From an uncultured Eubacteriales bacterium (GTDB lineage Bacteria; Bacillota; Clostridia; Peptostreptococcales; Anaerovoracaceae), in NCBI GenBank assembly GCA_900315485.1, contig OMZI01000026.1, positions 1 to 37,589 of the forward strand: DNA of 37,589 bases, in the 5' to 3' direction. The position numbers were made by a program, and so were the translations under genes. The first letter of the stretch is position 1. Every line of letters begins with the position of its first letter. A model generated the notes under the pieces. The model saw nothing but the letters and a program-made list of their open reading frames with translations. It was not told the DNA's origin and made no database searches. Positions 2,717-5,990 of this stretch are shown one piece after another.

Positions 2717-4993
2717 ATGAACACTATCATCAAACGTGACGGGAAAGAAGTAAAATTCGACGAGTCCAAGATCTTTAACGCTATATATGCTGCCAACAAG
2801 GCGGTAGACGGCGAGAAGATGACTAGCATCGATTTTACCTATCTGACCAAGAAAGTTGTTGAGCAGCTGGAAGGAGAGACCTGCACAGTAGAGCAGGTAC
2901 AGGATATCGTAGAGCAGATGCTCATAAAGTATGACTATGAGAAGACCGCAAAGGCTTACATTCTCTACCGTGCTGAGCATGCCAAGATCAGAGAGGCTGA
3001 GTCCGATCTGATGAACATCTATAACGAGCTCACATATTCATATTCGAAAGACGCAGACATCAAGAGAGAGAATGCCAACATCGACGGCGATACTTCGATG
3101 GGAACCATGCTCAAGTACGGTTCCGAGGGCGCTAAATATTTCGTAGATAATTATGTTCTTCCTAAAGATATAGCCAAAGCACACATCAACGGTGACATCC
3201 ACATCCACGACAAGGATTTCTACATGCTCACCGAGACATGCTGCCAGATCGACCTGATCAAGCTGTTCAAGGACGGCTTCTGCACAGGTCACGGATATCT
3301 GAGAGAGCCTCAGTCGATCATGAGCTACGCTTCACTCGCATGCATCGCTATTCAGGCTAACCAGAACGAGATGCACGGCGGACAGTCAGTTCCTAATTTC
3401 GACTATTCCATGGCTCCGGGCGTTGCAAGAACATACATCAAGGAGTACTTCTCCGCACTGACTGAGATCATCGCTGCAAAGCTCGACGTTCCTTATGCAA
3501 GCGCAAAGGGCATCTGCGAGAAGATCAGGGCAGAGGCACCGGCTCCGACTATCAGCAACACAAGGACATACGGAGACAAGCTCGGAAAGTGGTATGACCA
3601 GGCTGACAACAAGTTCGGCATCGACAAGGATGTCCTGATCCACTGCAACGAGCAGGCAGGCGAGGCTGCATGGGCAAGAACCGACAAGATGACCTACCAG
3701 GCAATGGAGGCTCTTATCCACAACCTCAATACAATGAATTCAAGAGCAGGAGCTCAGGTTCCGTTCAGTTCAGTCAACTTCGGAACAGATACATCCCCTG
3801 AGGGACGTATGGTCATCAAGAACTTCCTGCTTGCAACCGAGGCCGGCCTCGGAAACGGCGAGACACCTATCTTCCCTGTATCGATCTTCAAGGTCAAGGA
3901 AGGCATCAACTTCAACGAGGGAGATCCTAACTATGATCTCTTCAAGCTGGCAATAAGATGCAGTGCCAAAAGGCTGTTCCCTAACTTCAGCTTCCTTGAT
4001 GCACCGTTCAACAAGAAGTTCTACAGAGAAGGCGACTACAATACAGAAGTTGCTTACATGGGATGCCGTACAAGAGTTATGGCTAACAGCCATGATCCAA
4101 GCAAGGCTGTAGTATGCGGAAGAGGAAACCTCTCGTTCACATCGATCAACCTGCCTAGACTCGGAATCGAATCGAACAGAGACTTTGATGTTTTCTACAA
4201 GAAGCTCGACAACATGCTTGATCTGGTATCGAGACAGCTCCTGCACAGATTCAGGATCCAGTGCAGCAAGAAGGGCCGCAACTATCCGTTCCTGATGGGA
4301 CAGGGCATCTGGATCGATTCAGACAACCTCGGACCTGATGACAGCGTAGAGGAGGTCCTCAAGCACGGAACACTTTCGATCGGATTCATCGGACTCGCTG
4401 AGACAATGAAGGCTCTTACCGGCAAGCATCACGGCGAGAGTGAGGAATCAAGAAAGAAAGCTTTCGAGATCATCAAGCACATGAGAGAGTTCTGCGATAA
4501 GAAGAGCGTTGAGACAGGCCTCAACTTCACACTCCTGGCTACACCGGCTGAGGGACTGTCGGGAAGATTCGTCAAGATCGACAGAGAGAAGTACGGCAAG
4601 ATCGAGGGCGTTACAGACAGAGCTTACTACACTAACTCATTCCATGTTCCTGTATACTATCCGATCGGTGCGTTTGAGAAGCTCGATATCGAGGCTCCTT
4701 ACCACGAGCTGACCAATGCAGGCCACATCAGCTACGTAGAGCTCGACGGCGATACAGCCAAGAACCCTGAAGCTTTCGAGGCTGTTATCAGACACATGCA
4801 GAAGGTCGGCATCGGATACGGCTCAGTCAACCACCCTGTTGACAGAGACCCTGTATGCGGATACACAGGCGTTATCGATGATGTATGCCCGAGATGCGGC
4901 AGAAGAGAAGGCGAGCCTGTAACCATCGAGAGACTCAATGAGCTCAGGATGAAATTCCCTAGCGTTCCTGTACCTTGCGACTGCATCCACTAG
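2717..4993 (+). CDS. nrdD: Class III (anaerobic) ribonucleotide reductase, catalytic chain lacking its glycyl-radical domain
   Basis: A 758-residue enzyme that reduces ribonucleoside triphosphates to deoxy forms without oxygen. Residues about 1-95 are an ATP-cone allosteric domain (IIKRDGKEVKFDESKI), followed by the ten-stranded glycyl-radical barrel. Cys175/176 (ETCCQID) and Cys450 (YMGCRT, the likely thiyl-radical cysteine) are in place. Near the end, DPVCGYTG and CPRCGRR (Cys714, 724, 727) are the zinc-site cysteines, perhaps completed by Cys754 or Cys756. The chain then stops at CDCIH. The canonical C-terminal RxTGYL radical loop is absent; it is encoded separately at 5116-5277. The start was chosen at the ATG with GGAAG upstream, where homology begins. 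An in-frame extension back to 2621 is leader. Confidence 0.93.
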   Translation: MNTIIKRDGKEVKFDESKIFNAIYAANKAVDGEKMTSIDFTYLTKKVVEQLEGETCTVEQVQDIVEQMLIKYDYEKTAKAYILYRAEHAKIREAESDLMNIYNELTYSYSKDADIKRENANIDGDTSMGTMLKYGSEGAKYFVDNYVLPKDIAKAHINGDIHIHDKDFYMLTETCCQIDLIKLFKDGFCTGHGYLREPQSIMSYASLACIAIQANQNEMHGGQSVPNFDYSMAPGVARTYIKEYFSALTEIIAAKLDVPYASAKGICEKIRAEAPAPTISNTRTYGDKLGKWYDQADNKFGIDKDVLIHCNEQAGEAAWARTDKMTYQAMEALIHNLNTMNSRAGAQVPFSSVNFGTDTSPEGRMVIKNFLLATEAGLGNGETPIFPVSIFKVKEGINFNEGDPNYDLFKLAIRCSAKRLFPNFSFLDAPFNKKFYREGDYNTEVAYMGCRTRVMANSHDPSKAVVCGRGNLSFTSINLPRLGIESNRDFDVFYKKLDNMLDLVSRQLLHRFRIQCSKKGRNYPFLMGQGIWIDSDNLGPDDSVEEVLKHGTLSIGFIGLAETMKALTGKHHGESEESRKKAFEIIKHMREFCDKKSVETGLNFTLLATPAEGLSGRFVKIDREKYGKIEGVTDRAYYTNSFHVPVYYPIGAFEKLDIEAPYHELTNAGHISYVELDGDTAKNPEAFEAVIRHMQKVGIGYGSVNHPVDRDPVCGYTGVIDDVCPRCGRREGEPVTIERLNELRMKFPSVPVPCDCIH

Positions 4994-5000
4994 GATGCAG
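4981..5000 (+). other. Perfect hairpin centred on the nrdD stop codon
   Basis: CTGCATCC (4981-4988) and GGATGCAG (4993-5000) pair perfectly around the loop ACTA. The TAG stop (4991-4993) therefore spans the loop and the first base of the right arm. No T tract follows, so it is not an intrinsic terminator. It could be an RNA-stability or processing element separating nrdD from the small downstream gene. Confidence 0.55.
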
Positions 5001-5080
5001 CCGGCACAAGATACAGTACCGCTCAGCAAAAAATACAACAACATACACAGAATTGACTTCATATACTATCGGCAAAGGTT

Positions 5081-5086
5081 TATAAT
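5081..5086 (+). promoter_or_regulatory. Possible -10 element ahead of the glycyl-radical ORF
   Basis: A perfect TATAAT lies 30 bases before the small ORF. The nearest good -35 (TTGACT, 5053-5058) is 22 bases away, too far for a standard promoter, and the correctly spaced hexamer TTCATA (5058-5063) is poor. A separate promoter for the small gene is possible but weakly supported. Confidence 0.25.
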
Positions 5087-5115
5087 GGAGAGGTGGAATT
5101 AACGGAGGTAGAGAG

Positions 5116-5277
5116 ATGAACAATAAGGTCGTTAAGAACGTAAACGGACAGGTTGGCGAAGGCGTAGGATTCGAGAGAATCAGAAGAATCACAGGATATC
5201 TCGTAGGAACACTCGACAGATTCAACAACGGCAAGAGAGCTGAAGTAGAAGACAGAGTTAAGCACGGCCTGAGATAA
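5116..5277 (+). CDS. Stand-alone glycyl-radical domain of class III ribonucleotide reductase
   Basis: A 53-residue ORF whose residues about 12-50 are the C-terminal glycyl-radical domain of NrdD. RRITGYLVGTLDRFNNGK carries the radical glycine (Gly27), and the conserved tail RAEVEDRVKH follows. It has a strong GGAGG site 7 bases before the ATG. It lies 122 bases after the nrdD stop and in a different frame, so neither readthrough nor a single-base error would rejoin the two. The upstream NrdD ends without this motif, and the activase gene nrdG is next, so it almost certainly supplies the radical in trans to the barrel. Stand-alone glycyl-radical domains are known for pyruvate formate-lyase (GrcA/YfiD), but the motif here is of NrdD type. 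A terminator follows the stop by 21 bases. Confidence 0.9.
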   Translation: MNNKVVKNVNGQVGEGVGFERIRRITGYLVGTLDRFNNGKRAEVEDRVKHGLR

Positions 5278-5298
5278 TAGACCGAAGAATGTTGACCG

Positions 5299-5333
5299 GT
5301 GTGGGCAGGGCAGTTCCTGCCCGCACTTTTTTT
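5299..5333 (+). terminator. Rho-independent terminator between the glycyl-radical ORF and nrdG
   Basis: GTGTGGGCAGG (5299-5309) pairs with CCTGCCCGCAC (5316-5326) through 11 pairs including one G-T. The loop is 6 bases and seven T follow. It ends the nrdD transcript before nrdG, so nrdG must rely on partial readthrough or its own promoter. Confidence 0.92.
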
Positions 5334-5402
5334 AGAAGCAGATGCCGTGGCGGTCATTTTCCGGACCGGGAAACGCGGGATCAGCAGGAGCACTTAACAG
5401 AG

Positions 5403-5990
5403 ATGGAAGATAACAGCAGACCTGAAGAAAATGAAAAAAAGAAAGACGGGATGACCCTGAGAGTATGCGGTATAGAGCCTGAGTCCATAGTAGACGGCCC
5501 GGGCTTCAGATATGTACTGTTCGTACAGGGGTGCCCGCATCACTGCCATGGCTGCCACAATCCTGAGTCATGGGATCCTAAAGCGGGATTTGACATGACG
5601 ACAGGAGAGGTATTTGCCGAGATCATGGAGAATCCTTACCTGAGAGGCGTGACATTCTCGGGAGGAGAACCATTTGAGCAGGTGCCTGCTTTGCTCGAGC
5701 TGGCTAAAATGTGCAGAGAGGCAGGGCTGTCTCTTATGAGCTACAGCGGATACACGCTGGATGAGCTGGAGGCAAGACATGATCCGGATACCGACGAGCT
5801 GCTCGGCATGCTGGATGTGCTTGTTGACGGCAGATATGATGAAAAACTGCGCAATCTGACGCTTATATACTGCGGATCAGAGAACCAGCGTGTAATAGAC
5901 ATGAGAAAGACCCGCAAGGCAAGGACTGAAGGCGACCACGGTATAGTCATTCCGTATAAGTCATCGTTTGATGTTGATATAGAGATATGA
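5403..5990 (+). CDS. nrdG: Anaerobic ribonucleotide reductase activating protein (radical SAM)
   Basis: A 195-residue radical-SAM activase that uses a 4Fe-4S cluster and S-adenosylmethionine to form the glycyl radical. The cluster motif CxxxCxxC is GCPHHCHGC (Cys44, Cys48, Cys51), preceded by ESIVDGPGFRYVLFVQ, which is typical of NrdG. TFSGGEPFEQ is the SAM-binding GGE motif. The start is uncertain. ATG 5403 has GGAG 12 bases upstream; ATG 5451 (MTLRVCG) is where homology begins. The frame continues back to 5289, but that part overlaps the terminator and is unlikely to be translated. Its substrate here should be Gly27 of the separate 53-residue protein. The stop overlaps the next start by ATGA. 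Confidence 0.92.
   Translation: MEDNSRPEENEKKKDGMTLRVCGIEPESIVDGPGFRYVLFVQGCPHHCHGCHNPESWDPKAGFDMTTGEVFAEIMENPYLRGVTFSGGEPFEQVPALLELAKMCREAGLSLMSYSGYTLDELEARHDPDTDELLGMLDVLVDGRYDEKLRNLTLIYCGSENQRVIDMRKTRKARTEGDHGIVIPYKSSFDVDIEI

Follow-up and report, generated by a model that had tools for sequence, protein, structure and literature searches.

A class III ribonucleotide reductase in two pieces, with a presumed glycyl-radical subunit of 53 residues

The anaerobic ribonucleotide reductase (RNR) of an uncultured Eubacteriales bacterium is very probably an obligate two-piece class III enzyme, in which a small protein serves as a separate radical-arm subunit that would be kept as a replaceable stock. 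The large chain, NrdD, has retained the ATP cone, the barrel, the finger-loop cysteine and the zinc region and has lost its own radical glycine.

Parts of the locus

By the window we mean the whole stretch of DNA that was analysed, 37,589 nucleotides in length. The relevant features are the following:

2717..4993, + strand: nrdD barrel gene, encoding the 758-aa catalytic chain of the class III RNR, which has no glycyl-radical loop
2723..2983, + strand: ATP cone, residues 3-89 of NrdD (PF03477, E 1.8e-19)
4064..4066, + strand: codon of the finger-loop Cys450 (MGCRTRV), the expected thiyl-radical cysteine
4856..4897, + strand: zinc-knuckle region with Cys714, Cys724 and Cys727; putative zinc role, after the excerpted description of P. 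copri NrdD (PMC11226230)
4907..4990, + strand: C-terminal tail, residues 731-758, occupying the place of the relatives' radical loop
5058..5086, + strand: sigma-70-like promoter TTCATA-17-TATAAT, 5' of the small ORF (sequence motif)
5104..5108, + strand: Shine-Dalgarno GGAGG of the small ORF (sequence)
5116..5277, + strand: stand-alone NrdD glycyl-radical protein, 53 aa (NRDD 533-562; alignment of 36; pN/pS 0.069)
5194..5196, + strand: codon of the presumed radical glycine, Gly27, which lines up with the radical-glycine motif in fused NrdD
5289..5990, + strand: nrdG-like activase gene, the next gene after the small ORF (TIGR02491, 148.8 bits, above its cut-off)
5298..5327, + strand: terminator-like hairpin and T run, 3' of the small ORF (2 overlapping sites; shuffles 0.6 +/- 0.8)

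The preliminary description had placed the 758-residue NrdD and the small ORF, with its own GGAGG, correctly, and the sequence bears out the gap of 122 nt and the different frames of the two ORFs. It had also claimed that NrdD lacks an RxTGYL motif, which the small ORF encodes instead. In agreement with this, a profile search matched the barrel ORF to positions 1-531 of the 562 of Pfam NRDD and the 53-aa protein to positions 533-562 (E 2.8e-8). The small protein gave no match to Pfam Gly_radical at E up to 0.1. The ATP cone, Cys450 and Gly27 stand as first described, but the zinc region holds three cysteines and not four. This three-Cys pattern is shared by 14 of 32 Gly-bearing relatives, and the other 18 have an extra cysteine before the first one. 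Cys450 is invariant in 29 split barrels and also in 42 chains which include fused phage homologues.

The locus has an ATP cone, which is a feature of most class III NrdD proteins, and, as a class III NrdD should, a 10-stranded barrel with the finger-loop cysteine and a cognate NrdG, but no radical glycine on the C-terminal loop of the catalytic chain. NrdD ends with the zinc region followed by a motif-less tail of 28 residues, which looks like a decayed remnant of the radical loop. The AF2 model of the barrel is of moderate confidence (pLDDT 73.5) and its fold matches P. copri NrdD. Since the start of the nrdG ORF overlaps the hairpin, the true start may lie further in, for example at the ATG at 5403 or 5451. 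Upstream of nrdD (794-1342) lies a putative rubrerythrin-like ORF, judged by its motifs, which would fit oxygen stress.

Distribution, conservation and expression signals

The records closest to the window are MAGs that come from ruminants and horses and are labelled Mogibacterium sp., uncultured Clostridiales or Candidatus Crickella, and the genus was sampled with 47 genomes of Mogibacterium-like/'Crickella' MAGs. In 41 genomes a barrel end without the glycine was assembled, and every one of these has the small ORF. Two genomes carry a Gly-bearing NrdD of another type (ARRTCGYIG, SRITGYY) and no small ORF, and four, with a completeness of 59-86%, have neither barrel end nor small ORF. One barrel fragment (G012) contains in-frame stops. 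As a separate observation, a second, Gly-bearing NrdD type with a C-terminal extension that is thioredoxin-like by eye is encoded in L242 (G051:C9), and a similar one in G031.

Beyond the genus, we took from a named genome collection the best 80 of 269 barrels by similarity to a split barrel, a sample that leans to split forms. Seventy-eight of them are 3'-complete. The glycine is absent in all 78, and no RxTGYL-like motif occurs in their last 80 residues, which speaks against a radical glycine elsewhere on the long chain. The small ORF lies beside the barrel in 77 of these 78, and in the remaining one, from Marasmitruncus massiliensis, it is 35 kb away. In the 77 pairs the distance from barrel stop to small-ORF start has a median of 89 nt (range -44 to 227), and an nrdG-like motif follows downstream in 68. 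Some of these pairs come from records that carry strain names of Coprococcus catus, Intestinimonas butyriciproducens, Anaerostipes and Lachnoclostridium. An error of MAG assembly is ruled out by these strain-named records and by the recurrence of the arrangement in 77 records besides the window. In other classes of the phylum (family f120), Gly-less barrels occur with a longer free copy in at least 10 genomes, one of which (G844) has a Gly-bearing NrdD in addition. The arrangement had been suspected to be more widespread, and it is, both within the genus and outside it.

In one genome assembled as a single contig of 2.07 Mb (G897), the barrel and the small gene are 429 kb apart. A search of this contig gave neither a further NrdD match nor one to a class I/II RNR, so the radical glycine has to be supplied in trans there. 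The original proposal of a radical glycine acting in trans is strongly supported by such unlinked pairs, by the obligate co-occurrence and by strong purifying selection. The latter is indicated by the pN/pS of the 38-codon core of the small ORF, 0.069, compared with 0.096 for the barrel as a control (35 genus sequences each); saturation affects many of the synonymous comparisons behind these values (118 and 190 of 595 pairs).

We also looked at the gap between the two genes. A sigma-70-like promoter matching at least 9 of 12 positions is present in 29 of 33 genus loci and in 29 of the 30 with a gap over 40 nt, whereas random sequences of the same make-up gave a promoter-like site in 8.1 of 30 cases on average, with a maximum of 14. 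Three of the 33 loci have a gap of 18-21 nt, too short for an own promoter, and one longer gap is without a site. In L156 and L167 the promoter-like sites are about 100 nt from the start. The own promoter-like sequence, together with the terminator-like hairpin after the small ORF of the window, predicts that a separate stock of the small protein is likely.

The pair could also have arisen by plain gene fission, with the small protein as a permanent stoichiometric subunit that is made with the barrel and has no role in exchange or repair. We regard this as a real possibility, if a somewhat improbable one. It fits the adjoining genes and the downstream nrdG-like motif in most of the 77 pairs, as well as the fact that, of the 41 genus genomes having any, 26 carry just one copy, but it is at odds with the own promoter-like site in most genus loci and with the unlinked pairs in several genomes. 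The free copies that adjoin an intact NrdD and the barrel-less extra copies on conjugative elements and phages, both described below, argue against it as well.

Free copies of the radical arm and other reductases

Two to five copies of the small ORF were found in 15 of the 47 genus genomes. All 25 loci with extra copies were inspected, and 19 of them, including two that supplied the marker proteins, lie within one conserved conjugative-element block with VirD4, VirB4, DUF5688 and two unnamed proteins. To regard these copies as prophage-borne was wrong for most of them, as Pfam gives VirD4, VirB4 and relaxase. The six copies outside the block are in C42 of the window genome, G037, G046, G005, G013 and G017:C83, and the one in G046 is located just upstream of the barrel. 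Around the extra small ORF, which is identical in the two, contigs G000:C42 and G037:C8 (L226/L411), which belong to two species, share 11,032 bp at 100% identity, reflecting either a recent transfer or a shared contamination. Near this second small ORF of the window genome there is also a 907-aa ORF with Cas12a/Cpf1 domains, cut by the end of the stretch (L226 16278-19001).

Viral contigs contain 284 stretches that encode a relative. The best 80 of them by similarity to the stand-alone query, a choice that leans to split forms, comprise 78 stand-alone and 2 fused loci. A barrel is nearby in 5 of these 80 loci, and none is seen in 61 of the 66 loci of at least 10 kb. All five viral loci tested contain phage genes (terminase, portal, DNA polymerase, integrase or neck protein). 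When the scan was done with fused NrdD and sorted by a pattern script, the best 80 of 127 included 44 fused chains, 16 split chains with a small ORF, 8 without glycine (among which some have a different radical motif) and 12 undecided by the script. A plasmid search returned 28 records, and of the two looked at, that of Subdoligranulum variabile has a 54-aa stand-alone frame and the other is fused. A search of a phage collection returned 15 records. For the mobile small copies, no dedicated NCBIfam model scored above its cut-off, and Pfam and PHROGs give only full-length NrdD families.

Two phage cases were observed on the side. Eggerthella phage EL753P1 (OP172808.1, L243 6964-7172) encodes a 953-aa Gly-less nrdD followed by a small radical ORF, the motif halves of which are in two frames in that record. 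The split pairs on viral contigs L359 and L361 have an unusual small-ORF motif, HIARITGYLARxDRFN.

It can be argued that the mobile copies have no role in dNTP supply and that they compete with the host enzyme or control it, for instance as a switch or decoy. Most phage loci are without a barrel or NrdG, and the N-termini are varied and include an extra domain of about 50 residues. However, the radical motif and the tail of the phage and element copies are conserved in the alignment as in the host copies, and some phages encode both pieces themselves, a barrel without the glycine and a small ORF, like the 16 mentioned above. We therefore consider a switch or decoy unlikely. The presence on phages and conjugative elements suggests that the tiny tip protein is a replaceable part.

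The domain of about 50 residues is found at the N-terminus of the long free form, with a predicted beta-alpha-beta-beta order (L076, L095, L113 and L120; host copies, e.g. L374-L378), and has no match of its own in Pfam or PHROG. The AF2 model of the long free form has a pLDDT of 65.1, under 50 in the radical part, and gave no PDB match at E <= 0.001.

Five genomes encode an intact NrdD and, 11-41 nt downstream, a free copy of 94-112 aa; in further genomes with an intact NrdD, the free copy is located elsewhere. An intact NrdD with a longer free copy is apparently a spare-part stage. Gly-less barrels that coexist with a free copy have arms ending in GFERVKRITGYPVGGMESLQ, FERIHRITE, GFERIERILP or EEEHFERIPRL, and the chain with FERIHRITE terminates at the glycine position. 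Judged by their sequences, these endings represent stages of decay of the main-chain arm. In a FastTree analysis of 91 rows, phage rows included, we counted 9 split/fused changes, with splitS as one clade (support 90), and a quick IQ-TREE run of 69 rows gave at least 5 changes, with splitS in 2 (1 forced). This means that the main-chain glycine was lost more than once. The likely route would lead from an intact NrdD to an intact NrdD with a free spare copy and then to the decay of the main-chain arm.

We find it very improbable that another RNR does the work and that the split enzyme is inactive or can be spared. Outside the genus, 30 genomes with a Gly-less barrel were examined; a class I/II match is present in 11, so that the split pair there may not be essential, and three further ones have a second NrdD, but no other RNR was found in 16. 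Within the genus, 2 of 47 genomes have a class I/II match; at a completeness of at least 90%, such a match was found in 1 of 18 and in none of the other 17. An intact second nrdD had been considered for the window genome, in which no second NrdD barrel was found at a completeness of 85.6%. The low pN/pS of both the small ORF and the barrel also speaks against a dispensable enzyme. Rejoining of the small ORF to the barrel into one chain, by readthrough, frameshift or splicing, is close to refuted, since the two ORFs lie close together and share a frame at some loci (25 of 77) but the relative frames of 25/30/22 follow no frameshift or readthrough rule, 75 of 77 small ORFs have their own start and a Shine-Dalgarno-like site (which was used in choosing the start), and separations reach 35 kb and 429 kb.

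Proposed mechanism and relation to known systems

In the two-piece enzyme that we propose, Gly27 would receive its glycyl radical from NrdG, and this activation of the small protein by NrdG is suggested by the gene order. The loop of the small protein would enter the barrel and lie beside Cys450, like the C-terminal loop of one-chain enzymes. A small protein cut by oxygen at the glycine would be swapped for a fresh 53-residue copy, and the 758-residue enzyme would not have to be rebuilt. Such exchange after oxygen damage is plausible, and it fits the separate promoter-like sequence, the presence of more than one copy in a genome and the carriage of copies by mobile elements. In the excerpted reports, the radical domain of dATP-bound P. 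copri NrdD is disordered (PMC11226230), whereas in the S. thermophilus class III RNR its position is unchanged, so the ease with which the arm leaves the barrel differs between enzymes.

With the class III NrdD/NrdG systems of T4, P. copri, S. thermophilus and T. maritima the locus has in common the ATP cone, the barrel, the finger-loop cysteine, the zinc region and the NrdG-like neighbour. It differs in that the radical glycine is on a separate 53-aa protein, whereas the class III literature, in the parts consulted, places it on the catalytic chain. A catalytic RNR subunit split over two genes is known from NrdJa/NrdJb of Pseudomonas aeruginosa, which resembles the window pair in this respect, but NrdJ is a class II, B12-dependent enzyme without a glycyl radical.

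The excerpts of PMC8683613 describe GrcA/YfiD and T4 Y06I, spare-part proteins of pyruvate formate-lyase (PFL), which are likewise small free proteins that duplicate the radical arm of a large enzyme, and also phage-borne. According to these excerpts, PFL is the sole enzyme for which a stand-alone radical protein is known, YfiD and Y06I alone were validated, and spare parts for other glycyl-radical enzymes are a speculation. Here, the small protein is homologous to NrdD (Pfam NRDD) and not to the PFL Gly_radical family, and the partner barrel is permanently without glycine, in the window and in 78 relatives. By analogy, the small protein of the window would work like a GrcA-type arm that was made obligate, although it fails two defining GrcA features. 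The long free copies beside an intact NrdD are closer to GrcA, as the partner enzyme has its own glycine there. Another phage ORF with a glycyl-radical domain is T4 vs.6, for which a role in nucleotide metabolism is suggested in the excerpted text of PMC1524935. In contrast to the small protein of the window, vs.6 matches the PFL-type Gly_radical family. We presume that vs.6 and Y06I are the same gene. A description of a two-piece NrdD was not found in the portions of open-licence literature searched.

Many anaerobes break the rule that the radical glycine resides on the catalytic chain, and often no further RNR was found in them. An annotation that scores the long chain alone would miss that it is unable to work alone. 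The question whether non-PFL spare-part proteins exist, which is asked in the excerpts of PMC8683613, becomes testable with natural pairs and without an engineered truncation, and the genomes with an intact NrdD and a free copy serve it equally. The copies that phages and conjugative elements carry are candidates for auxiliary genes of DNA synthesis. It is close to an even call, falling slightly on the doubtful side, whether the radical arm is an exchangeable mobile module. In that case many gut anaerobes would hold unlit barrels, the chromosome, conjugative elements and phages would each supply the arm, and an incoming element would relight dNTP synthesis after oxygen.
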